DNA from: a virus
Length of the DNA: 35,863 nucleotides
Strand: one strand, 5' to 3'
IMG/VR virus record: IMGVR_UViG_3300031278_000132
Span: 1 to 35,863 of that record
In this document: positions 17,267-32,409 of the stretch, piece after piece
Numbering within the stretch: the first letter of the stretch is position 1
Layout: each line of letters starts with the position of its first letter
The notes under the pieces: model-generated
The model's input: the letters and a program-made list of their open reading frames with translations, nothing else
The model's database searches: none
What the model was told of the DNA's origin: nothing
Position numbers and translations under genes: made by a program

Positions 17267-17781
17267 TGAGAATTTGTAGTGCGCCGGATTGTAATTACAA
17301 CGTTTTCGGAACAGATAAAAATACAGGGAAAGGATATTGTAAAATACATCAATTCCTGAGAAGTGATATTGTACGAACAATAAAGAAGAAATCCGTCAAA
17401 GAAAGAAATAAATGCTTGTCAAAAAATAAGTATGACTTTGATGTGTTTCAGTGGGGATTCAAATCTGAGTTGAGTATGTTTAAATGGATATGGAAAAATC
17501 GTCCTCACAGATCTGAAATAAGTGGAAGAGATTTAACTAAAGTAAATCACAATTTATTTCTGAATATGTTTGCACACATTCTCCCCAAAAAACAATATCC
17601 CTTATTCAGATATAACCCGGATAATATAATGCAATTGGTCCCGATTGAACACACCCTTATTGACCAGGGAACAGAAAAAGGAAGAGAAAATTATAAAAAA
17701 GAATATTCAAAAACTGATTTTAGTATATTTTACAATAAAAAGAAAGAGTTGTTGAAAAGTTATCCTAAAAAATATATTTAA
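17266..17781 (+). CDS. HNH-fold / NinG-like recombination protein candidate
   Basis: This 171-residue protein has an N-terminal zinc-binding pattern (C4, C9, C25, H28 in CSAPDCN and GYCKIHQ). A later segment, MFAHILPKKQYPLFRYNPDN, then QLVPIEHTLID, resembles NinG/Rap and HNH proteins in which H104, N120 and H129 would form the beta-beta-alpha metal site. Family knowledge: NinG-like proteins act at recombination intermediates. The remaining C-terminal segment is Lys-rich. The similarity is motif-level only. Confidence 0.55.
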   Translation: MRICSAPDCNYNVFGTDKNTGKGYCKIHQFLRSDIVRTIKKKSVKERNKCLSKNKYDFDVFQWGFKSELSMFKWIWKNRPHRSEISGRDLTKVNHNLFLNMFAHILPKKQYPLFRYNPDNIMQLVPIEHTLIDQGTEKGRENYKKEYSKTDFSIFYNKKKELLKSYPKKYI

Positions 17782-17783
17782 AC

Positions 17784-17909
17784 ATGGGGAGTGTTTACTT
17801 AAACGAAAGAATGCTAAATAGAGGAAAGTCTGTTCGTAATGGGTGGAGTGAACTACCCACCCACGCCAAAGGCGATGGGATGGGCTTCAGGAGTCAGCAC
17901 TTTGACTAA
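17784..17909 (+). pseudogene. Small ORF apparently interrupted by element A
   Basis: An ATG at 17784 opens a frame reading MGSVYLNERMLNRGKSVRNG, which then runs into the end of the inserted element at 17848 and stops at 17909. If element A is removed at the predicted boundaries, the frame continues from WNKNFLRH to a stop near 18722, giving a 28-residue product. The ORF is short and may not be a gene. Confidence 0.25.
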
Positions 17910-18572
17910 ATAATACCTATGTTTAATATGAGATATTTTACCAGAACATAAAAGAGAAATAGAACCAATGGAAACATTTAATTTGTCAGCAGCATCAACC
18001 ACTCCATTACAAACAATAGTTAGGGATGCGTCTTTATCAAACATTTCTATTTGCTTCTTTTTCATTTTTTTACCTGTCATTATTTCTCTCATTTTTTCTG
18101 AATGTCCTTTAGGCATCTTTTTCCCTTTATTCCAACTTGGTTTCCCTTTCATTGATTCAGATATTTTCTTTTTTGTTTCATCTGATAGCTTTAGTCCAGT
18201 ATGGCATTTAATACTTGCTTCCCTTTGTTTTTGGGTGTGCTTTTTACCTGTTTTAGATTTAATCATTTTTGCTTTTGTTTCTTCTGACATTCTACCCTTA
18301 TTAGTTCCCCCTAAATCTAAATTATATCCTTTAGGAGCTATGCAATTGTATTTTAGTATAAATTCCCTTTCTAATTCATTTAATCTATTTAGGCAATTCA
18401 CATCATTAACTAATATAGTTTTCACGAACATATCTTTGCCGTATTTTTTTACAGCACATTTAAAAGCAATTCCACTTCCTAAATATGTATTAATATTTCG
18501 TAGGTTTATGCTTTGTCCAATGTATTTTTTACCATTCACTAAACAAATCGTTAAATATATGTATCCCTTCAT
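17853..18572 (-). CDS. GIY-YIG homing endonuclease in an IS605-like element
   Basis: This 239-residue protein has YIYL (4-7) and KKYIGQS (15-21) forming the GIY-YIG core, with Arg25 and a Glu in ELEREFI (66-72) as further catalytic residues. Next come NUMOD3-type DNA-binding repeats (MSEETKAKM, LSDETKKKISESMKGKPSWN, about 95-170), a helical NUMOD1-like segment VVDAADKLNVSIGSIS (about 191-206), and a 16-residue tail encoded by the element end. I chose ATG 18572 over the in-frame ATG 18596. It lies 5 nt after TATATTTG, and MKGYIYL is the normal family start. The architecture matches T4 Seg-type and intron homing enzymes. Confidence 0.88.
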   Translation of the reverse strand: MKGYIYLTICLVNGKKYIGQSINLRNINTYLGSGIAFKCAVKKYGKDMFVKTILVNDVNCLNRLNELEREFILKYNCIAPKGYNLDLGGTNKGRMSEETKAKMIKSKTGKKHTQKQREASIKCHTGLKLSDETKKKISESMKGKPSWNKGKKMPKGHSEKMREIMTGKKMKKKQIEMFDKDASLTIVCNGVVDAADKLNVSIGSISLLCSGKISHIKHRYYLVKVLTPEAHPIAFGVGG

Positions 18573-18577
18573 AAGTG

Positions 18578-18585
18578 CAAATATA
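18578..18585 (-). promoter_or_regulatory. -7 box of the element A nuclease
   Basis: TATATTTG on the minus strand ends 5 nt before the ATG, which predicts a very short or absent 5' leader. Confidence 0.5.
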
Positions 18586-18811
18586 CTAAAAATCAAGACA
18601 AGTTATCAATATATTTGTCAAAATTATTAAAAATGTAAGTGTTAAAGGAGTCGCTTACATCCCATCCACGCTAAAAAGCGATGAATGGGTTTTACGCTCC
18701 ATTTTATAAAAATTTTCTTAGGCATTAATAATACCACCTACATTCTTAATATATATAACATTATAATATACCACTACATATATTCATATATACTATATTC
18801 TTCTTTTAATA

Positions 18812-18835
18812 AGATATAGATATAGATATAGATAT
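18812..18835 (+). repeat. Four tandem AGATAT hexamers
   Basis: Perfect AGATAT x4 in an A/T-rich stretch just left of the iterons. It could be an unwinding element or a simple slippage repeat. Confidence 0.7.
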
Positions 18836-18874
18836 GCGATTTTCTTTTATTCATGCGTGGTACAGAGCGAGATT

Positions 18875-18940
18875 TTCCACGTATCGTTATCTAATCTTCC
18901 ACGAATCATTATCTAATCTTCCATAAATCGTTATCTTGTT
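18875..18940 (+). repeat. Three tandem 22-bp iteron-like repeats
   Basis: Copies at 18875-18896, 18897-18918 and 18919-18940. Each begins TTCCAYRWATC and continues RTTATCT, and copies 1 and 2 both end CTAATC. The exact 22-bp spacing puts each copy on the same helix face (two turns), as for Rep-binding iterons. The start of copy 3, TTCCATAAAT, recurs inverted at 18948-18957, giving a 10-bp inverted repeat. Confidence 0.7.
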
Positions 18941-19013
18941 TTACATTATTTATGGAAAATCTAATTTTTTTCAAAAAATAATTTGTCTGGTGGTATATTT
19001 AATTAATAATTCA

Positions 19014-19021
19014 TATATTTG
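19014..19021 (+). promoter_or_regulatory. -7 box of the RepL-like gene
   Basis: TATATTTG lies 22 nt before ATG 19044 and matches TAnnTTTG. Its closeness to the iterons allows autoregulation by the Rep protein. Confidence 0.5.
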
Positions 19022-19043
19022 CGGAAAATAACAATATCTAATT

Positions 19044-19469
19044 ATGGAAAATAAAATAACCAAAGCCGTAAAACGAGAAAACTTTATCAAGGTTTTTTTA
19101 GATGATTTGAGAGGATTACTTAAAATTGAAAATTTTGTTCAATATAGCGTAATGGTCTATATTTGGAAAAAGTTAGATTGGAATAATAAACCTTTTTATC
19201 TTCAACAAGCAGAAAAAGAAGAAATAATAAAAGAACTCGATCTTAAAAACACACAATCTGTATCAAATGCACTAACCAGACTTGTAGAAAATAAATTATT
19301 AAAAAGAATTCATAAGGGATATTATGAAATAAATCCTAAATTTTTCTTTAAGGGAGATGATGATGAAAGATATAGACTTGTTGTTGAATATGAAATTATA
19401 AAAGACCCTAAAACCCCAGAAAAAACAACTACATTTAAAAAAAATGAACCAGTATTAGAGGCGTTTTAA
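19044..19469 (+). CDS. RepL-like winged-helix replication initiator candidate
   Basis: This 141-residue protein has a winged-helix core: KEEIIKELDLKNTQSVSNAL (about 58-77) as helix-turn-helix, then LVENKLLKRIHKGYYEINPK as the wing. YEINPKFFFKG (94-104) matches the INPKxFFKG signature of RepL-type plasmid replication and maintenance proteins. The tail is disordered. Iteron-like repeats lie immediately upstream and a strong terminator downstream, so this forms a self-contained replicon-like module. Confidence 0.62.
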   Translation: MENKITKAVKRENFIKVFLDDLRGLLKIENFVQYSVMVYIWKKLDWNNKPFYLQQAEKEEIIKELDLKNTQSVSNALTRLVENKLLKRIHKGYYEINPKFFFKGDDDERYRLVVEYEIIKDPKTPEKTTTFKKNEPVLEAF

Positions 19470-19485
19470 TTTCACACTTTCAATA

Positions 19486-19517
19486 GCTCGCCAATTGGTG
19501 TAACTGGTGGGCTTTTT
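19486..19517 (+). terminator. Rho-independent terminator of the RepL-like gene
   Basis: GCTCGCCA pairs with TGGTGGGC (two G-U pairs) and is followed by TTTTTATTCTTTTT, 16 nt after the stop codon. Confidence 0.75.
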
Positions 19518-19563
19518 ATTCTTTTTAAAATTATTCACACATAAATTTGGCACAACATTCGAA

Positions 19564-19582
19564 AAGGATGCAAAACATCCTT
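19564..19582 (+). terminator. Second hairpin with T-rich tail
   Basis: Perfect 7-bp stem AAGGATG/CATCCTT with loop CAAAA, followed by CTTTCTTG. It lies in the 233-bp gap between the RepL-like gene and the convergent minus-strand gene. A smaller CCTGA/TCAGG hairpin follows near 19624-19636. It could be a back-up terminator or a small structured RNA. Confidence 0.5.
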
Positions 19583-19702
19583 CTTTCTTGTTGGCAAATT
19601 TTTCTTTTAAATTGGAGTTATGCCTGAAAATCAGGTATTAGTGAAAAATTTTGAATTACTTATATAAAGTAGTTGGCAGTAATGTCGCAAGCGGTCAGGC
19701 AA

Positions 19703-20029
19703 TCAAATTTGCCCATTATCGCAATTGCGTTGTTCGTACACTCTATGACCTAATTCTGGATGCATAATATATCCAGTGCCTTTGCATTTTGGGCAAATTC
19801 TTTTTTTGCCCTTATTACTGCCAACGCTCGGTTGTTCTATTTTACACCAATGGGTAATTCTATTAATTTTACATGTAGTTGTATCGTATTTATCATATCT
19901 CCAAGGTTTAGAAAGTTCTTTTTCGTCATCATCAAAATAACATATTTCTACAAATTTATTTTCTAATCTACATAATATTATCCCGTCACTTTCTTTTGGC
20001 TGCTGTGTTTTAATGTTTATCCATTCCAT
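19703..20029 (-). CDS. DUF551-like N-terminus with a C-terminal zinc-ribbon motif
   Basis: This 108-residue protein begins MEWINIKTQQPKESDGIIL and has RITHWCKIE, resembling small phage DUF551-type proteins (W-P start, THW end). After a linker comes CPKCKGTGYI, a DnaJ-like half zinc site, with further Cys near the end (NCDNG). It is the only non-element gene on the minus strand in this part of the window and may be expressed separately. Function unknown. Confidence 0.55.
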   Translation of the reverse strand: MEWINIKTQQPKESDGIILCRLENKFVEICYFDDDEKELSKPWRYDKYDTTTCKINRITHWCKIEQPSVGSNKGKKRICPKCKGTGYIMHPELGHRVYEQRNCDNGQI

Positions 20030-20117
20030 CGCACTATATTTTAAGTTAAGTATTTCAAATTAAGTTCTGTGATATGTGTTGGGCAAACTACCCATACCGC
20101 TGTCCGTTAACAATATT

Positions 20118-20146
20118 ATGAAAAAATATTCACATGAAAAAATATT
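20118..20146 (+). repeat. 13-bp direct repeat in an intergenic region
   Basis: ATGAAAAAATATT occurs at 20118-20130 and 20134-20146, 3 bp apart, within a 209-bp A/T-rich gap upstream of the 114-aa gene. Possible regulator-binding pair. Confidence 0.45.
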
Positions 20147-20205
20147 TAAGCAATTATTTTATCAATTTTTTATCAAAAATATTTGTTTATTAAAAATATA
20201 TTTCA

Positions 20206-20229
20206 GTACTTTGTTTTCGAAACTAACGG
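20206..20229 (+). promoter_or_regulatory. Weak promoter and AACTAACGG leader of the DnaA-like/HU operon
   Basis: GTACTTTG (20206-20213) is one position off the TAnnTTTG box. The leader AACTAACGG (20221-20229) precedes ATG 20239, as in the packaging and scaffold transcripts. Confidence 0.4.
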
Positions 20230-20238
20230 AAACTTTAT

Positions 20239-20583
20239 ATGAAAGACTTATTAAAAATTGGAAGTAAACTTAAAAGGGCAGGTAAATTATCGCCTGTTGA
20301 GCCGACAAAAGAAAGCGTCAATCCTTCGCCAACTACACCAAACATCAAAGAATCACCAAACAATAACATTCTTTCTGACGGCCAATCTACTGAGGATATA
20401 ATAGAAGAAACAGAAAGAGAAATAGAAAATAATATCTATAAAGAAATTTCAAAAGAAGGACGCACTTTTACTCTTGACAAGGCCAATTGGATAGAAAATA
20501 ACAATGGAGATGTTGTTATTCAAATTACAATTCCCAAAGAACAATGTCTTGAAATTGGAACATTTTTAATTAAACATTCATGA
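20239..20583 (+). CDS. Hypothetical protein with disordered N-terminus
   Basis: 114 residues. Residues 1-55 are Pro/Ser/Asn-rich and disordered after a short basic start (KDLLKIGSKLKRAGK). The rest is acidic, with a beta-rich end (GDVVIQITIPKEQ). The stop overlaps the next start (ATGA). No family recognised. Confidence 0.65.
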   Translation: MKDLLKIGSKLKRAGKLSPVEPTKESVNPSPTTPNIKESPNNNILSDGQSTEDIIEETEREIENNIYKEISKEGRTFTLDKANWIENNNGDVVIQITIPKEQCLEIGTFLIKHS

Positions 20584-21116
20584 GTGTAGTAGCAACAATT
20601 ATATCGGAAGATGGGGCGTGGATAGCATCTGATTCATGTTTTTATGATGATTGTAGTGTTTATAGAACTGAATATAAAAAGATATTCAAACATGAGGATA
20701 TTCTAATAGGGGTAGCGGGGAAGACAATAATAATTCATGAGCTAAGAAAGATGGTTAATGAAACACAATTTAATCCTGTAGCAAAAGATTTAATTGATGA
20801 AGATTTTGTATATACAAATTTTATTGATCATTTAAGGGATAATGATGTGGTATCTACGCTTGATGGATTGTGGAATATATTAATAAACACAGGCAAAAAG
20901 ATTTTTGAGATTGATAATAATTTTACTGTCTTGTCTTGTGAGCTTCCATACGCTTCAATAGGCGTAGGCCACGCAGAGGCTATGGGGAGTCTCATGACAT
21001 CTTCCCTTTTGTCTGGAAAAATACCACTTAACGGAACAGACCTTATAAGGGCAATTAACGTAAGCAAAACATTTAACCAGGCAGTAAGGGAACAGATACA
21101 AATAATAAAATTGTGA
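20580..21116 (+). CDS. Ntn-hydrolase (proteasome/HslV-like) protein
   Basis: This 178-residue protein opens MSVVATIISEDGAWIASDS, matching the first two strands of proteasome beta/HslV folds, including the conserved Asp18. YKKIF (32-36) places a Lys where the catalytic Lys33 lies, and ILIGVAGK and ASIGVGHAEAMGSL match the later glycine-rich turns. The usual N-terminal Thr is absent; Ser2 could serve after Met removal, or the protein may be inactive. It overlaps both neighbours by 4 bp. Substrate unknown. Confidence 0.6.
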   Translation: MSVVATIISEDGAWIASDSCFYDDCSVYRTEYKKIFKHEDILIGVAGKTIIIHELRKMVNETQFNPVAKDLIDEDFVYTNFIDHLRDNDVVSTLDGLWNILINTGKKIFEIDNNFTVLSCELPYASIGVGHAEAMGSLMTSSLLSGKIPLNGTDLIRAINVSKTFNQAVREQIQIIKL

Positions 21117-21532
21117 ATTTATCTTTTGCAAATAAAAGAAGGCTGGTGTGGTTAATTAATCGTGTGTGCGAGGATTTTGATGTAACAAAGGATGAGTTGT
21201 TTTCAAAATCAAGAGAGGGGAATATCCCTATTGGAAGATTTGTTGTTTGGTATAATCTGTTTAATCACCTTAATGTCTCAAAAATCAATATAGCTCGTAT
21301 TTTTAATAAGAGAGATCACGCAGCTATTATAAACGGGTTAAAAACATACAAAAATTTATCAGACACAGAAAAAGATTTTAACAGGAAAGTGAGTAATATA
21401 GAAAAAGATTTTCTTTTTCAGTTTCCATCTCAAAAAAGAAATCAATCTTTGAAAAGAGAGCTTACAAGTAGAATTTTTAACAATCAATATTATAGACCTT
21501 GGGCAGATATAGGACGATTATTAATCAGGTGA
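21113..21532 (+). CDS. DnaA domain IV-like DNA-binding protein
   Basis: This 139-residue protein contains FNKRDHAAIINGLKTYKNL (64-82), closely matching the DnaA-box-binding signature (RDHxxVxxA helix) of DnaA domain IV. No AAA+ domain is present. The start is GTG at 21113, overlapping the previous stop (GTGA). Element B begins at 21529, inside its last sense codon, and supplies the stop. The predicted empty site reads AGA TAA, encoding the same C-terminal Arg. It may direct replication initiation or repress host DnaA sites. Confidence 0.6.
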   Translation: MNLSFANKRRLVWLINRVCEDFDVTKDELFSKSREGNIPIGRFVVWYNLFNHLNVSKINIARIFNKRDHAAIINGLKTYKNLSDTEKDFNRKVSNIEKDFLFQFPSQKRNQSLKRELTSRIFNNQYYRPWADIGRLLIR

Positions 21533-21533
21533 A

Positions 21534-22709
21534 CTACCCACCCACGCCAGAGGCGATGGGTTGGGCTTCGTGGGTCAACACTCTCTCTAACGAGGGCAGT
21601 TCGCCACGATTTTTAAGTCTGTGTTCCCCAGACAAATTATTTTTAAGAGCAAAAGATTTTATGTTACAAGCAGCATTAACATCCCTATCAAGAACAGAAC
21701 CACACTTCGGACAAGTCCATTCACGGTCTTTAAGCGTAAGTCCTTTATTGATATGCCCACAATTAGAACAAGTCTTTGACGATGGCGACCAACGTCCTAT
21801 CCTTAGAATGTTTTTACCATACCAGCCTGCCTTGTATTCTAACATAGCTACAAAAGTTGACCAGCTAACATCATTTATTGTTTGTGCTAAATTGTGGTTT
21901 CTCACCATATTACTAACAGCTAAATCTTCTAAGCAAATCGTTTGGTTCTCACGAATTAACTTAGTAGATGTTTTGTGTAAAAAGTCTTTGCGTTTATTGA
22001 TTACTTTCTCATGTAGCAAGGCAAGGTGTTGTTTAGTGCGTTTGCCTTTATTCTTTGAATATTTTTGTTGTACATATTTTAATTTGCTCTGTGCTTTGTG
22101 TAGATATTTTGGGTTATCGAATACCTCACCTTCTGATGTAATGGCGAAGTCTTTTATTCCAAGGTCGATACCTATAGTACTGTTTTCTTTGATAGGTGCT
22201 TTAGTAGGTTTTTCAGTGTTAGTATCAACCAATATAGATGCAAAATACTTTCCAGTAGGCGTTCTACTTACCGTTGCACTTTTAATATTTCCTTTTATTG
22301 GTCGGTGCAAAACAATTTTAATACCTTCTTTAAACTTAGGAATAATTAGAAGGTTATTTTCTATAATGACATTCTGTGGAACAGCAAAAGATTGTTTGCT
22401 TTTATGTTTTGATTTGAATTTCGGAAATCCCGCACCCTTGAAGAATTTCTTAAAAGCAATATCCATATTCTGTATAGCTTGTTGCAAGGATTGGCTATTA
22501 ACTTCCTTTAGCCATTCACATTCTTTTTTAAGTTCAGGTAGTTGCTTAATTAAATCAAAAGGGGAAAAGTTGTGTTTAGAACCTAAATATGCTGTGTTTT
22601 TTGTTTCTAAGGCTAAATTATACACAAACCTATTACTTCCAATATGCTTGGCTATTAACTCTTTTTGCGAGTTTGTAGGGTATAGTCTATATTTCATTCC
22701 TTTCAACAT
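21534..22709 (-). CDS. tnpB: TnpB RNA-guided nuclease of element B
   Basis: A 391-residue product from ATG 22709, which begins MLKGMKYRLYPTNSQKE, the standard TnpB opening. The in-frame upstream ATG at 22742 lies before the promoter box and is rejected. Catalytic residues: D182 in IGIDLGIKDF, E261 in CLEDLAVSNM and D343 in DRDVNAACNI. The zinc finger uses C314, C317, C333 and C336. All are intact. The last 16 codons are encoded by the element right end, whose transcript should also form the omega-RNA scaffold. The stop TAG is part of the conserved GGGTAG end. Confidence 0.92.
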   Translation of the reverse strand: MLKGMKYRLYPTNSQKELIAKHIGSNRFVYNLALETKNTAYLGSKHNFSPFDLIKQLPELKKECEWLKEVNSQSLQQAIQNMDIAFKKFFKGAGFPKFKSKHKSKQSFAVPQNVIIENNLLIIPKFKEGIKIVLHRPIKGNIKSATVSRTPTGKYFASILVDTNTEKPTKAPIKENSTIGIDLGIKDFAITSEGEVFDNPKYLHKAQSKLKYVQQKYSKNKGKRTKQHLALLHEKVINKRKDFLHKTSTKLIRENQTICLEDLAVSNMVRNHNLAQTINDVSWSTFVAMLEYKAGWYGKNILRIGRWSPSSKTCSNCGHINKGLTLKDREWTCPKCGSVLDRDVNAACNIKSFALKNNLSGEHRLKNRGELPSLERVLTHEAQPIASGVGG

Positions 22710-22713
22710 AACA

Positions 22714-22721
22714 CAAAGATA
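22714..22721 (-). promoter_or_regulatory. -7 box of element B tnpB
   Basis: TATCTTTG on the minus strand ends 4 nt before ATG 22709, predicting a leaderless or nearly leaderless mRNA. A TTTG lies 13 nt upstream of the box, the same spacing as in element D. Confidence 0.55.
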
Positions 22722-22845
22722 CAATTTATTTTGACAAAACAATTTTTTTGTTTAAATTTACAAAATGCAAGTGTAACAGGAGCCGCTTACATCCCATCGG
22801 CTAAAGACCGATGGGTTTTACGCTCCGTCATATAAAATTAACGAT

Positions 22846-28322: not shown

Positions 28323-28389
28323 GATAACCCTTGTAGCTGTAAATTGCGATTGTCCAGATGATGCTGTAGCAGCACTCAGATATTCATAA
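28306..28389 (+). pseudogene. 5' fragment of a gene cut by element D
   Basis: ATG 28306 encodes MKKVGKITLVAVNCDCPDDA and continues VAALRYS, ending at a TAA formed by the first bases of element D. The opening resembles DUF5672-type glycan proteins (K.ITLVAV.C...). Predicted removal of element D keeps the frame open for another 13 codons only, so the native gene is also truncated downstream or rearranged. It overlaps the phosphatase by 17 bp. Confidence 0.5.
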
Positions 28390-28514
28390 AAATTTCGGCA
28401 AGGAAACCAATTGATCACAAAGTGTCGATTGGAGGAATTGCCGCCTCATAATTAAATTGTTAGTAAAATTAGTAATTATTTTCTGATACTTGCTTAGTTT
28501 GGGTATTTTTTTAT

Positions 28515-28522
28515 TATCTTTG
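28515..28522 (+). promoter_or_regulatory. -7 box of the element D nuclease
   Basis: TATCTTTG lies 15 nt before ATG 28538, with TTTG 13 nt upstream of the box, as in element B. Confidence 0.55.
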
Positions 28523-28537
28523 TAGAAAAAAGATACT

Positions 28538-29116
28538 ATGTATAATTGGACAAAAGAACAAACGGAATTATTAAAGGGTATAAAATCAGAATACGACTTT
28601 GATAGAATTGCTGTGCTTGTTAATAAAACAAGAAGTGCTGTAAAAACAAAGGCTAACAGAATGAAGATATATTCATATCCTGAAATAGAGATATACCATA
28701 CGAAAATACCAAAAGAAATAAAAGCGTATTTATCTGGACATTTCGATGGTGAGGGATGTATTAGAATGGAATCCAGATATTCAGGACGATTAAGTCGACG
28801 TTTAATTATAGCTGTATCATCAGCAAATAACCCTTCCTTAGAATTATACTCCAAATATTTCAATGGACATATAAGTGCTAAAAAACATTTTACTAACAAG
28901 CCTATGTTTTCATGGAGATTAACAAACCAAGAAGATTTATATAATTTTATAGAATTTATTTTACTTTTTAGTATTGAAAAACAACAACAATTAATTTTGG
29001 GTAAAGAATGGATTTTAAAAAGATGTGAAGAAAGAAAAACAGTTGCCTTATCAAATGAATTTATTGAATATTCAAATAAGGTAGCTGAGCAATTAAAACA
29101 GTTGAAAAAACTGTAA
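28538..29116 (+). CDS. LAGLIDADG homing endonuclease in an IS605-like element
   Basis: This 192-residue protein has a single LAGLIDADG-type motif, LSGHFDGEGCI (65-75), with D70 as catalytic acid, followed by the strand-rich DNA-binding saddle (RRLIIAVSSANNPSLELYSK, FSWRLTNQEDLYNF). A single motif implies a homodimer cutting a pseudo-palindromic site. Residues 3-41 (WTKEQTELLKGIK, NKTRSAVKTKANRM) form a helix-turn-helix DNA-binding extension. It does not read into the element's right end, unlike the GIY-YIG and TnpB genes. Confidence 0.85.
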   Translation: MYNWTKEQTELLKGIKSEYDFDRIAVLVNKTRSAVKTKANRMKIYSYPEIEIYHTKIPKEIKAYLSGHFDGEGCIRMESRYSGRLSRRLIIAVSSANNPSLELYSKYFNGHISAKKHFTNKPMFSWRLTNQEDLYNFIEFILLFSIEKQQQLILGKEWILKRCEERKTVALSNEFIEYSNKVAEQLKQLKKL

Positions 29117-29250
29117 ACAACCCGGTAAAATCGACTATGTTTTGCTCTTTGCATTCGTTGTCAGGTTTAAAACCCATCCGATCTTTAGTCGGTGGGTAGT
29201 TTATCACTGCAACTTTATAAACGGAAACGAAATATTAAATCTTAAAAGTA

Positions 29251-31170
29251 ATGAAAAAGCATAAAGTAATAGAAGAGGATAAATCGGAGAAGGTTTATGA
29301 ACTCCAATTCCATTGTCATGGATGGAGAGATTTAAGAAAAACATTTATTAAGGGTTTATCTATTGATGAGATTGAAAAACGCTTTTATAATCATAAAGAT
29401 TTAATAATATGTAAATCTTCGAATGAAACTAATATAAAATGGTTGCGTATTAAAAAAGGTCTTATAGTTGGAATAAAAGATAAGTCAGGCTTTATAACTT
29501 TAGATGAAGGAATATGCGTTGCTGAAAACTTTTTTGATGTAGCTCATTTACATGATGACCATATATCTAATTGTGTAGAACCATTAGAAGATAAAATTGA
29601 AGAAGATTATTCAAATACAATAATAGAAATTAAATCATTCCAAGATGAAAAAGCATATATTAAAGGTTTATCATTAGATGATTTTATGGATAAGTATGGT
29701 AACTGCTATAATATATTGTCGGCCAGAATTACAGATGAAACCAATATAAGATTTTATAAAATGAAAAATAGAGTTTTATTTGGAACTAAAAACTCAAAAA
29801 AAGCTAGGTTAATAATAACTCTTGATAAAGGATTAATGGTTACTCCAAATATAGGTCGTGTTTTTGATTTTATTAGTGATGTTGGCCCATATTTAGAAGA
29901 CATAAAGGAAGATAAATTCGAATTAGAACAGAGGGTTAAATTAAGTTCATTATTTTATAATGCCTGTGATAAATTAATAAAAAACGGTAATATACATGGA
30001 GATCATTTCATTGATTCTTTAGTTTATATTCCTAATAATGTGAAAATAGATATTGATCTTAACAATTATCAAACGTATGGTGAAAAATTAATAAGTGGAT
30101 CATTAGCATGTATTAAATACGGCGGGTTCAATTTTTATCTCAGAGAAAGAGAATATAAAATTTTGTTTTCTGAAGAAGAAGAGAAGAATTGGGAAATATT
30201 GGAATTTAGGTCTACTAAACCATTTGATTACTTTCGGTTTATCAAAGTTTCAAGCTCCGAAGATAGATTTGAACCACTAAATCCCAACATACTTCCTAAT
30301 AATGAACAATTCTTTTTACATTCTGAACATCATATAATATCAAAAGTAAAACGTTTATCTGACGGAGAAATATTTGAGATAGGGGACACGGTAAACATAA
30401 AAGGGCGTGATGCTGGAAAAATTTTAGGATTTAAAATAGGGCATCGTTCTAATATTTTCGGTAATAATCTTGTAGTTATATCTGAATATTCTGAATCAAA
30501 AATAGAAGCCATTTCTAAAACAGAACAACCAACTTCAAAAACTAAGGACTGGGAAGTATTGGAGGTAGAAAAAGGACCACTAGGAAGATGTTTTTTAGAT
30601 GGAGATTCGTTTTGGCATGGAGGGCATAGGTTTACTTATGATCAAATGATTGGATATATTAACCAAGGATTATGGGGTATTTACAGAGTAAAAAGATTAT
30701 CGGACGGGGAAATATTTACATTGGGAGAAAATGTTCATTCATCTATAATTCAATCTTGTTCTCAATCAGATGAAATAAAAGAGTTTTTTATAAGTAAGAA
30801 CGAAATGAATGTTCATTTTGGTCATTTTTCAACACCATTAAGAGCAATCATTAAAATAAAACAACCAACTTTAAAGACAGAAGATGGTAAAGAACTTTGT
30901 GATGGACAAGTTTATTATTATTTAGATATAAATAATATTGATGATATTATAATGCAAGGCACGTTCATTTCAAAATTTCCACGTTATTCTAATAATTATA
31001 AAATATTCTCATCAAAAGAAAAAGCTGAACAATATATAAAAGAGAATAAACCTCAATTTAATAAAAAGGACATGATTGAGTTTGCTGAATATTTTAGTGA
31101 TAATTATAATCATGCAGATTGTGAACCCACATATCCACTTGCAAAATGGCTAAGAAAAAGAAAGAAGTAA
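29251..31170 (+). CDS. Large repeat-containing hypothetical protein
   Basis: This 639-residue protein has two internal repeat types. KTFIKGLSIDEIEKRF...LITLDEG (about 30-85) recurs as KAYIKGLSLDDFMDKY...IITLDKG (about 130-195). VKRLSDGEIFEIGD (about 367-380) recurs as VKRLSDGEIFTLGE (about 481-494). The latter module is familiar from large proteins of Bacteroidota phages, function unknown. The C-terminal NKKDMIEFAEYFSDN is helical. Element C supplies its stop codon at 31168-31170; the predicted empty site would end AAG AAA TGA, giving the same protein. Confidence 0.72.
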   Translation: MKKHKVIEEDKSEKVYELQFHCHGWRDLRKTFIKGLSIDEIEKRFYNHKDLIICKSSNETNIKWLRIKKGLIVGIKDKSGFITLDEGICVAENFFDVAHLHDDHISNCVEPLEDKIEEDYSNTIIEIKSFQDEKAYIKGLSLDDFMDKYGNCYNILSARITDETNIRFYKMKNRVLFGTKNSKKARLIITLDKGLMVTPNIGRVFDFISDVGPYLEDIKEDKFELEQRVKLSSLFYNACDKLIKNGNIHGDHFIDSLVYIPNNVKIDIDLNNYQTYGEKLISGSLACIKYGGFNFYLREREYKILFSEEEEKNWEILEFRSTKPFDYFRFIKVSSSEDRFEPLNPNILPNNEQFFLHSEHHIISKVKRLSDGEIFEIGDTVNIKGRDAGKILGFKIGHRSNIFGNNLVVISEYSESKIEAISKTEQPTSKTKDWEVLEVEKGPLGRCFLDGDSFWHGGHRFTYDQMIGYINQGLWGIYRVKRLSDGEIFTLGENVHSSIIQSCSQSDEIKEFFISKNEMNVHFGHFSTPLRAIIKIKQPTLKTEDGKELCDGQVYYYLDINNIDDIIMQGTFISKFPRYSNNYKIFSSKEKAEQYIKENKPQFNKKDMIEFAEYFSDNYNHADCEPTYPLAKWLRKRKK

Positions 31171-31171
31171 A

Positions 31172-32293
31172 CTACCCGTTGGCTAAAAGACCAATGGGCT
31201 TTAAATCTGAATAATGCAAAGCACAGCTATACATACTCGACTTTTCACTGTTGTTTACGGAACAGCCCAGCGTAGCAATATTTATGCTGGCATTTATGTC
31301 AGCGTCCATATTGTTTCCGCAGTTTTTGCATTCGAACACCTTTCCTTTCCTGATGCCTATGTGATGGCAATGGCTGCAAGTTTTGCTTGTGTATTTTGGG
31401 TTAACCAAAATAACAGGCACGCCATTCAATGCGGCTTTGTAGGAGATGTATTGTCGCAACTGATTAAAAGACCACTTACCAACCCTTGTTCTAAATTTTT
31501 TGCCTTTTTTCAAAGAAGAAAATCGTATACCCTTCAAATCCTCAAGGGCAATGCCTTTGTTTTCTTGTTTAGCAATTTGAACAATTTGTTTAGCAATCGT
31601 GTGGTTGATAATAGAAGCCGCGGTGCGTTCTCTGCCAGAGAGCCTTTTCAAGAGTTTTTTACTTCCTCTTGTGCGTTTGCTTTGAACGGAGCTTCTTACT
31701 TTTTGTCTTTTTTCTCGATATTCTTGAAGTATTTTAGAGTTAAATTCTTTTCCATTACTAAGTGTGGCAATCGAAACCAAACCAAAATCCACACCCACGA
31801 AGCTTTCTACGTCCTCAACATCTTCTTCGGGTACATCAACAGTTTGAAACAAGTAAAGCTTACCTTTCTTGTAAACCAAATCAGCTTCCCCTTTGATGTA
31901 AGGAATATAAGCAGGATTGTGGCAAACAAAATCAATCTTTTGTCTGCCACCAATACACCACAAAGAAATCACATTGTCAGGCTTGTAAGTCATTATCCTA
32001 CTATCGTAGGCGATACTGCCAAGTGGATTAAAAGTACGTTTAGTTTTCTTATCCAGCTTATAAGCATCAGCAACTTTAGCTATTTGCCTGATAAGCATTT
32101 GAGAAGAAAGTTTAAACGTAGCCTTGTAAGCGTGGTATGTTCGATGATGGAGTTTGAAATTATTAAAAATCTTCTCTTGCCAAGCCACATCAGAAATAGC
32201 ATTACAAACAGTATTAGCTTCCTTCATCGTATCGAGAAGCAGGTTAGCCTGTTCACCAGTAGGCAAAAGTTTTATTTTCAACGTCAACTTCAT
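31172..32293 (-). CDS. tnpB: TnpB RNA-guided nuclease of element C
   Basis: This 373-residue protein has catalytic residues D169 in VGVDFGLVSI, E251 in IALEDLKGIR and D332 in DADINASINI. The zinc finger uses C306, C309, C322 and C325. All are intact. It is only distantly similar to the TnpBs of element B and of 315-1436. The C-terminus DLKPIGLLANG is encoded by the element right end, and its TAG stop lies in the conserved GGGTAG. ATG 32293 follows a TATCTTTG box by 4 nt. Confidence 0.92.
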   Translation of the reverse strand: MKLTLKIKLLPTGEQANLLLDTMKEANTVCNAISDVAWQEKIFNNFKLHHRTYHAYKATFKLSSQMLIRQIAKVADAYKLDKKTKRTFNPLGSIAYDSRIMTYKPDNVISLWCIGGRQKIDFVCHNPAYIPYIKGEADLVYKKGKLYLFQTVDVPEEDVEDVESFVGVDFGLVSIATLSNGKEFNSKILQEYREKRQKVRSSVQSKRTRGSKKLLKRLSGRERTAASIINHTIAKQIVQIAKQENKGIALEDLKGIRFSSLKKGKKFRTRVGKWSFNQLRQYISYKAALNGVPVILVNPKYTSKTCSHCHHIGIRKGKVFECKNCGNNMDADINASINIATLGCSVNNSEKSSMYSCALHYSDLKPIGLLANG

Positions 32294-32297
32294 AAGG

Positions 32298-32305
32298 CAA
32301 AGATA
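32298..32305 (-). promoter_or_regulatory. -7 box of element C tnpB
   Basis: TATCTTTG on the minus strand ends 4 nt before the ATG, again predicting a leaderless mRNA. Confidence 0.55.
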
Positions 32306-32409
32306 ATACTTTTTTCTGATATTAGAAATATTACTAACTTTGGAAATGCGAAAGCAGGCGCATTCCTACCACGAACTAAAGATTCGTGGGTTTCCTGCGC
32401 TAAGATTTT

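Follow-up and report, generated by a model that had tools for sequence, protein, structure and literature searches.

How one set of IS200/IS605-type transposon ends can come to enclose two unrelated nucleases, and what an element would gain from such an exchange, is the question raised by two neighbouring elements in a viral DNA stretch of 35,863 nucleotides (IMG/VR record IMGVR_UViG_3300031278_000132, positions 1 to 35,863; the whole stretch is hereafter called the window). Between matching ends, element A carries a GIY-YIG homing-endonuclease-type gene and element B carries tnpB. TnpB is held to keep IS605 elements in place after excision, analogous to homing endonucleases (PMC8612924, PMC11870625), and the original prediction made on this DNA had proposed that the nuclease gene is an exchangeable module, with GIY-YIG cleavage taking over from RNA-guided cleavage by TnpB. 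Comparison with other viral contigs supports the view that tnpB was repeatedly exchanged for homing endonuclease genes in phage IS605-type elements, the nuclease slot being interchangeable. The best explanation for A, to which we assign a probability of roughly 0.6, is a non-autonomous element moved in trans by TnpA, in which a homing nuclease occupies the tnpB slot and aids spread or retention. The features of the two elements are the following, in window coordinates.

17848..18705, minus strand: element A, IS605-type, with a GIY-YIG homing-endonuclease-type gene as sole cargo and ends that match those of TnpB elements
17848..17909, minus strand: right end of A, with the TTCAC cleavage site at its tip, an imperfect hairpin (17856-17884) with single bulged bases and the foot guide GAAG
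17853..18572, minus strand: GIY-YIG + NUMOD3 protein of A, 239 aa from its ATG, the last 17 residues encoded by the right end
18611..18705, minus strand: left end of A, with a hairpin (18661-18689) and the 5'-foot guide GTAAAA; the target TTTAT is the flank at 18706-18710
21529..22831, minus strand: element B, IS605-type, with TnpB as sole cargo and an empty site in a related contig (L267/G005)
21534..22709, minus strand: B's TnpB, which keeps all three acidic RuvC residues (Pfam OrfB_IS605, Cas12f1-like_TNB)
21529..21641, minus strand: predicted guide-RNA (omega/reRNA) scaffold and right end of B (118.7 bits)

Both A and B are complete elements of IS200/IS605 type, and they share a single set of ends. 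A repeat search gave their right ends (17848-17909 and 21529-21590), with 85% identity over 62 nt, as the region's largest direct repeat, and it also found left-end blocks of 37 nt and 27 nt at 89% identity each. The right-end motif GTGAACTACCCACCCACGCC and the left-end motif GATGGGTTTTACGCTCC each occur exactly twice in the 35.9 kb, far above the 0.00 and 0.04 copies, respectively, expected from shuffled sequences, so that both ends match as first claimed. Pfam and phrog matches likewise bear out the sole cargo proposed for each element, a GIY-YIG + NUMOD3 protein in A and TnpB in B. The boundaries of B are exact because its empty site is present in G005, an 81.9-kb viral contig that is up to ~96% identical to the window over shared stretches: at locus L267 the site aligns without gaps over 300 bp at 93.7% identity, TTTAT being joined directly to CTGATTAAT. 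B therefore spans 21529-22831, nearly exactly the outer coordinates originally given; TTTAT precedes its left cut, TTCAC precedes its right cut, and the target is not duplicated. Other apparent empty sites, at solo hairpins, were dropped as self-matches or copies of the same filled site, leaving that of B as the only one that counts. Assigned by the rule seen in B, a cut after TTTAT gives A the span 17848-18705. The element layout first proposed stood in its coordinates and needs correction in one respect, namely that the right end encodes the tail of A's open reading frame and does so in the frame of the TnpB tail (..VLTPEAHPIAFGVGG in A and ..VLTHEAQPIASGVGG in TnpB).

The origin of A is apparent from a TnpB element of another contig (L255), to which A is 93.5% identical over the 92 nt of the left end and 96.8% identical over the 62 nt of the right end, with zero similarity between. 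Since the two match at their ends alone, A goes back to a TnpB element like that of L255, whose tnpB was replaced by the endonuclease gene from the leader through the last codons. The protein now in that place matches Pfam NUMOD3 (1.4e-10), GIY-YIG (9e-4; 19.9 bits, under the 22.6 cut-off) and phrog_314, a homing endonuclease family (2e-34). Its N-terminal domain is predicted with a local confidence score (pLDDT) above 90 and its three best fold matches in the PDB (Foldseek) are to the I-TevI catalytic domain; a PDB search with the single sequence gave no match. With the invariant residues Y6, Y17-I18-G19, E68 and N84, it combines the predicted fold, the motif tyrosines and glycine, the putative catalytic glutamate and asparagine, and the NUMOD DNA-binding repeats of a GIY-YIG endonuclease.

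A second copy, L007, lies in unrelated context in a 247-kb phage contig. It has the same two ends and a GIY-YIG protein that is 77% identical to that of A and scores over the Pfam cut-off. The TTTAT flank is seen at both A and L007, and beyond it 13 of 60 flank positions are identical, below the shuffled mean of 16.9; with A and L007 at unrelated sites, an A-type element has moved with the nuclease inside. The ratio of nonsynonymous to synonymous divergence (dN/dS) of the two genes is 0.14 at a dS of 1.03, and a lineage of such age under purifying selection is not debris. The closest relatives of A's GIY-YIG protein are free-standing phage endonucleases without the ends of A and B, and no TnpB was found near the 79 other GIY-YIG loci; A's ends are therefore not a general feature of that endonuclease family. 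Searches of phage DNA with A and with most of the window as queries gave no matches.

The ends themselves follow the rules of single-strand transposition. Those of A and B are subterminal imperfect palindromes with a bulged base at both ends and no terminal inverted repeats. Paired hairpin-foot guides and cleavage sites are the signature of IS200/IS605 single-strand transposition, and in the family of ends to which A and B belong (F1) the left-hairpin foot GTAAAA is complementary to TTTA(T) and the right-hairpin foot GAAG to TTC, giving the cleavage site/guide pairs TTTAT/TAAA and TTCAC/GAA. TTTAT precedes the left end in 94% of 66 F1 elements, and the positions following the right tip TTCAC are random in sequence; the left-end search itself partly favoured the TTTAT flank, and B's empty site is better evidence for the target. 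Read from the alignment, three pairs of the left hairpin carry compensatory changes between A and L007. We also note solo elements of 43-48 nt at TTTAT sites (L102, L103, L129, L150, L156, L161, L165 and others), in which a single hairpin joins the left-end foot to the right-end tip and which look like the family pared down to its minimum.

What A has lost can be judged against B. The TnpB of B aligns to ISDra2-type TnpB structures (E 1.9e-67), acidic residues included, and the consensus of 20 TnpB elements over the last 113 alignment columns has 34 pairs, 17 of them with compensatory change, the covariation exceeding all 500 shuffles in four of five measures. B accordingly has both features of a TnpB with an omega/reRNA, the RuvC residues and a predicted structured RNA that extends from the 3' end of tnpB across the right end. 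In the guide-RNA model (R1) B scores 119 bits and copies without an open reading frame 117-121, against 59 for A and 55 for L007, whose scores are low because the right-end hairpin alone remains. The stems upstream of that hairpin are gone from A, which has neither a TnpB gene nor a TnpB guide-RNA scaffold. Other nuclease-bearing elements described below (L133, L096) score 82-84 bits, as do TnpB elements of their own subgroup; L138 scores 52 bits, its subgroup being outside the training set of the model, and keeps most of the sequence when compared with that subgroup; D and L259 keep ~100 nt of the tail of their own end family (F2). The RNA-guided part is clearly lost in A's lineage only.

The exchange recurs within the window, where a sister end family (F2) again encloses TnpB in one element and a homing endonuclease in another.

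31167..32409, minus strand: element C, F2 ends, with TnpB; target TTCAT, right tip GTAGTTTAC
28388..29204, plus strand: element D, F2 ends, TnpB replaced by a LAGLIDADG endonuclease; lies inside a gene that is intact in G005
28538..29116, plus strand: LAGLIDADG protein of D, 192 aa (Pfam LAGLIDADG_1, 2.6e-6)

Element D, which shares its F2 ends with C, was first seen as an unexpected match to the guide-RNA model at 29092-29204, right after the LAGLIDADG gene. Its protein scores 28.7 bits in Pfam against a cut-off of 23.1 and has the motif YLSGHFDGEG with an acidic residue; a match to it was sought in cultured phages and none was found. As with A, a homologue lies between the same ends at a different site: the LAGLIDADG protein of L259 is 72% identical to that of D, the dN/dS of the two genes is 0.16, and 13 of 60 flank positions are identical, below the shuffled mean. 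The purifying selection on these nucleases shows some use to the element or the phage. Compared with G005 (L286), the left junction of D falls exactly after TTCAT, and a second TTCAT, 572 bp on, immediately precedes the right junction; the insertion therefore came with a 572-bp deletion of the gene between two target sites, and the deletion looks transposase-type. The last base of D is altered, TTTAT standing in place of TTTAC. The F2 cleavage site/guide pairs are TTCAT/TGAA (clearest in L259) and TTTAC/TAAA, so that, as read from the sequences, guides and cleavage sites co-vary from F1 to F2. About 14 distinct F2 elements with TnpB and two with LAGLIDADG were counted.

Viral contigs were scanned with the F1 right end, and the 156 distinct right ends recovered were sorted by cargo. 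Where the left end was also found, the elements carried TnpB alone (20) or TnpA and TnpB (4), or were copies of 60-450 nt without an open reading frame (20) or single-hairpin solos of less than 60 nt (14). Three further nuclease captures emerged. In L138 an HNH/endonuclease-VII-type gene sits between the tnpB start and the tnpB 3' end. L133 holds intact TnpA and TnpB genes plus a GIY-YIG gene between two copies of a tnpB 3' segment, the GIY-YIG frame ending in the tnpB tail as in A. In L096, whose left end is off the contig, a GIY-YIG gene is followed by a tnpB 3' part. In the GIY-YIG tree the IS-borne genes fall at three places, forced by well-supported branches, L133 and L096 being long branches. 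Together with A and D, this makes at least five nuclease captures in the two sister end families (three GIY-YIG, one HNH and one LAGLIDADG); the exchangeable module inferred from A and B holds more widely than had been seen, and other nuclease cargo between such ends does exist, in the form of HNH, LAGLIDADG and two more GIY-YIG captures. Candidates for GIY-YIG between ends in L090, L103 and L129 were rejected, their ends being separate solo hairpins or lying kilobases apart, as were L149, L198, L201 and L208, which are pairs of distant unrelated ends. At L138:3726-3855 a new hairpin arises from the end of the HNH gene together with the 3' tail of tnpB; its loop, AGGAACT, is that of the guide-RNA stem of TnpB elements, perhaps reflecting selection to rebuild the guide RNA.

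How might A move, and to what use is its nuclease put? Both G005 and G001 have a Y1 TnpA gene next to an F1 left end, L133, L148 and L174 contain one within the element, and in the L007 phage a TnpA lies 4.8 kb from the GIY-YIG element; mobilization of A in trans by the TnpA of related phages is therefore likely. On the explanation we prefer, A would be a non-autonomous phage element of the IS200/IS605 family in which a homing-endonuclease gene replaced tnpB between the ends. Elements of related phages that have A's left end encode a Y1 TnpA, and this enzyme would move A. TnpA would bind both subterminal hairpins, the foot guides directing cuts after TTTAT (left) and TTCAC (right), and the element would insert next to a new TTTAT, the GIY-YIG protein playing no part in directing insertion. 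That protein would most likely cut the DNA of co-infecting relatives without the gene at a fixed target, like free-standing phage homing endonucleases, and repair from the carrier genome would spread or retain the region, element included. The element would in this way keep a break-making nuclease in the TnpB slot, with an aim fixed by the protein instead of reprogrammed by RNA.

Several observations weigh against this explanation. No TnpA is encoded within the 36-kb window. The search for empty sites that succeeded for B found none for A: G005 has a different sequence there and no other relative turned up. TnpB is present in all five phages checked that have an endonuclease-bearing element, and guide-RNA sequence is kept in L133, L096, L138, D and L259, so that TnpB acting in trans could retain the elements that keep it. 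The wider proposition, that a distinct phage IS605 group has an interchangeable slot in which TnpB and protein-guided nucleases (GIY-YIG, LAGLIDADG, HNH) take each other's place, and through which a protein-guided nuclease actively drives transposon spread or retention in co-infecting phages, we hold tentatively and at somewhat short of even odds. If true, homing endonucleases would be the functional equivalents of TnpB and would compete with it in nature.

The main rival, which we consider unlikely on its own, regards the endonuclease gene as a parasite and the IS as its vehicle: such genes would have invaded the abundant, multi-copy tnpB or its 3' end and killed or replaced it, with no gain to the IS. 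The further captures look like invasions of this type, L138 keeping the tnpB start and 3' end around its HNH gene, L096 placing the GIY-YIG gene directly before the tnpB 3' part and L133 holding it between two tnpB 3'-segment copies beside an intact TnpA and TnpB; that A's nearest GIY-YIG relatives are free-standing and without F1 ends fits as well. The tnpB coding region is, however, gone from A and D save for the 3' tail, the swap in A spanning leader to last codons, and both lineages spread by insertion at TnpA-type targets rather than at a common homing site. Invasion by a parasite and the explanation that we prefer are compatible as successive stages.

Another reading, that a TnpB supplied in trans retains the nuclease-bearing elements through their own guide-RNA tails, with the endonuclease neutral or serving the phage, is improbable. 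The tails kept in the five elements named above and the TnpB genes in all five phages checked are what this would require; A and L007 are without the scaffold stems, yet their lineage persisted to a synonymous divergence of about 1.

A direct substitution, in which the GIY-YIG protein cleaves the element-free insertion site as the original prediction had it, is disfavoured and in our estimate very improbable. The guide RNA lets TnpB change its aim with each new site, whereas the target of a homing endonuclease is fixed. A target coded in the protein would be unable to follow the element to new sites, and the homologues of 77% (A and L007) and 72% (D and L259) identity lie at sites that agree in nothing beyond the pentamer target (TTTAT or TTCAT), with flank identity below the shuffled means in both pairs. 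In favour of direct substitution, the GIY-YIG gene is under purifying selection and occupies the slot of TnpB, which is known to cut the empty site (PMC8612924). Lastly, hairpins near gene ends can look like terminators, but the idea that the shared ends are a mere phage terminator or hairpin and A is not mobile is refuted by the termini of B coinciding exactly with its empty-site junction, by the independent GIY-YIG copy L007 bracketed by the same two ends, and by the pairing of guides with cleavage sites.

Among known systems, the window's elements most resemble the IS200/IS605 elements with TnpA/TnpB (IS608, ISDra2), with which they share subterminal imperfect hairpins, a left pentamer target, guide/cleavage pairing, the absence of target duplication (seen in B) and, in B and C, TnpB with a predicted guide RNA. 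They differ in that A and D have a homing endonuclease for TnpB, that A is without guide-RNA stems, and that nearly all F1 ends in the collections scanned lie in phage contigs. IscB and IsrB represent IS200/IS605-type elements with an RNA-guided nuclease other than TnpB; GIY-YIG and LAGLIDADG proteins are not known to be RNA-guided, which sets the present elements apart. Free-standing phage homing endonucleases (GIY-YIG, LAGLIDADG, HNH/EndoVII type) are of the same protein families and stand alone in phage genomes, whereas the genes described here lie between transposon ends and travel in an IS to unrelated sites. IStrons (PMC4227781, PMC3984707) are likewise chimeras of an IS605-type element and a module typical of homing systems; in them an IS605/IS607-type element is joined to a group I intron, whereas the present swap puts a homing endonuclease in the place of tnpB, and an Rfam scan of the window at gathering thresholds gave no match at all, group I introns included. 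An accessory GIY-YIG nuclease is also present in algal-virus Mariner elements (PMC3627910) and in the Tsy transposon (PMC10293859), which have other transposases (DDE and tyrosine recombinase, respectively) and other ends and show no TnpB swap within single-strand-transposon ends. No description of an IS200/IS605 element with a homing endonuclease in TnpB's place was found in the open literature, subscription papers and bioRxiv being outside the search.

These natural nuclease swaps, made several times between near-identical ends, offer in B against A and C against D a controlled comparison of the benefit of TnpB, with reprogrammable or fixed aim on the same transposition machinery. They also show a route for homing endonucleases to gain transposon mobility and for elements to lose RNA-guided nucleases.

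F1 right ends are common in viral contigs, numbering 99 by a strict pattern and at least 120 by a looser one; a near-identical pattern occurred in only four contigs among 84,980 species genomes of cellular origin, three of the four being Bacteroidota-type metagenome-assembled genomes. These few matches and the promoter style suggest a Bacteroidota host. No full-length relative of B was found in cultured phage or plasmid records, F1-end searches giving partial tnpB matches only.

Some neighbouring features deserve mention. The stretch 17765-19534, comprising A and a RepL-like gene (19044-19469), is replaced in the 96% relative G005 by an F2 TnpB element and other sequence, suggestive of a hot spot for exchange. 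Just upstream of the RepL-like gene and beside A, three 22-nt direct repeats (18872-18945) resemble iterons and mark a candidate replication origin. Between A and B lies a gene for an HslV-family peptidase-like protein (20580-21116; phrog_1040). It is followed by a gene for a protein with a DnaA C-terminal domain, whose stop codon is at the insertion site of B and which without B would have the same last residue and stop. Finally, a lone TnpB of another subgroup is encoded at 315-1436, and a similar TnpB in L281 comes after an IS607-type resolvase-like gene.

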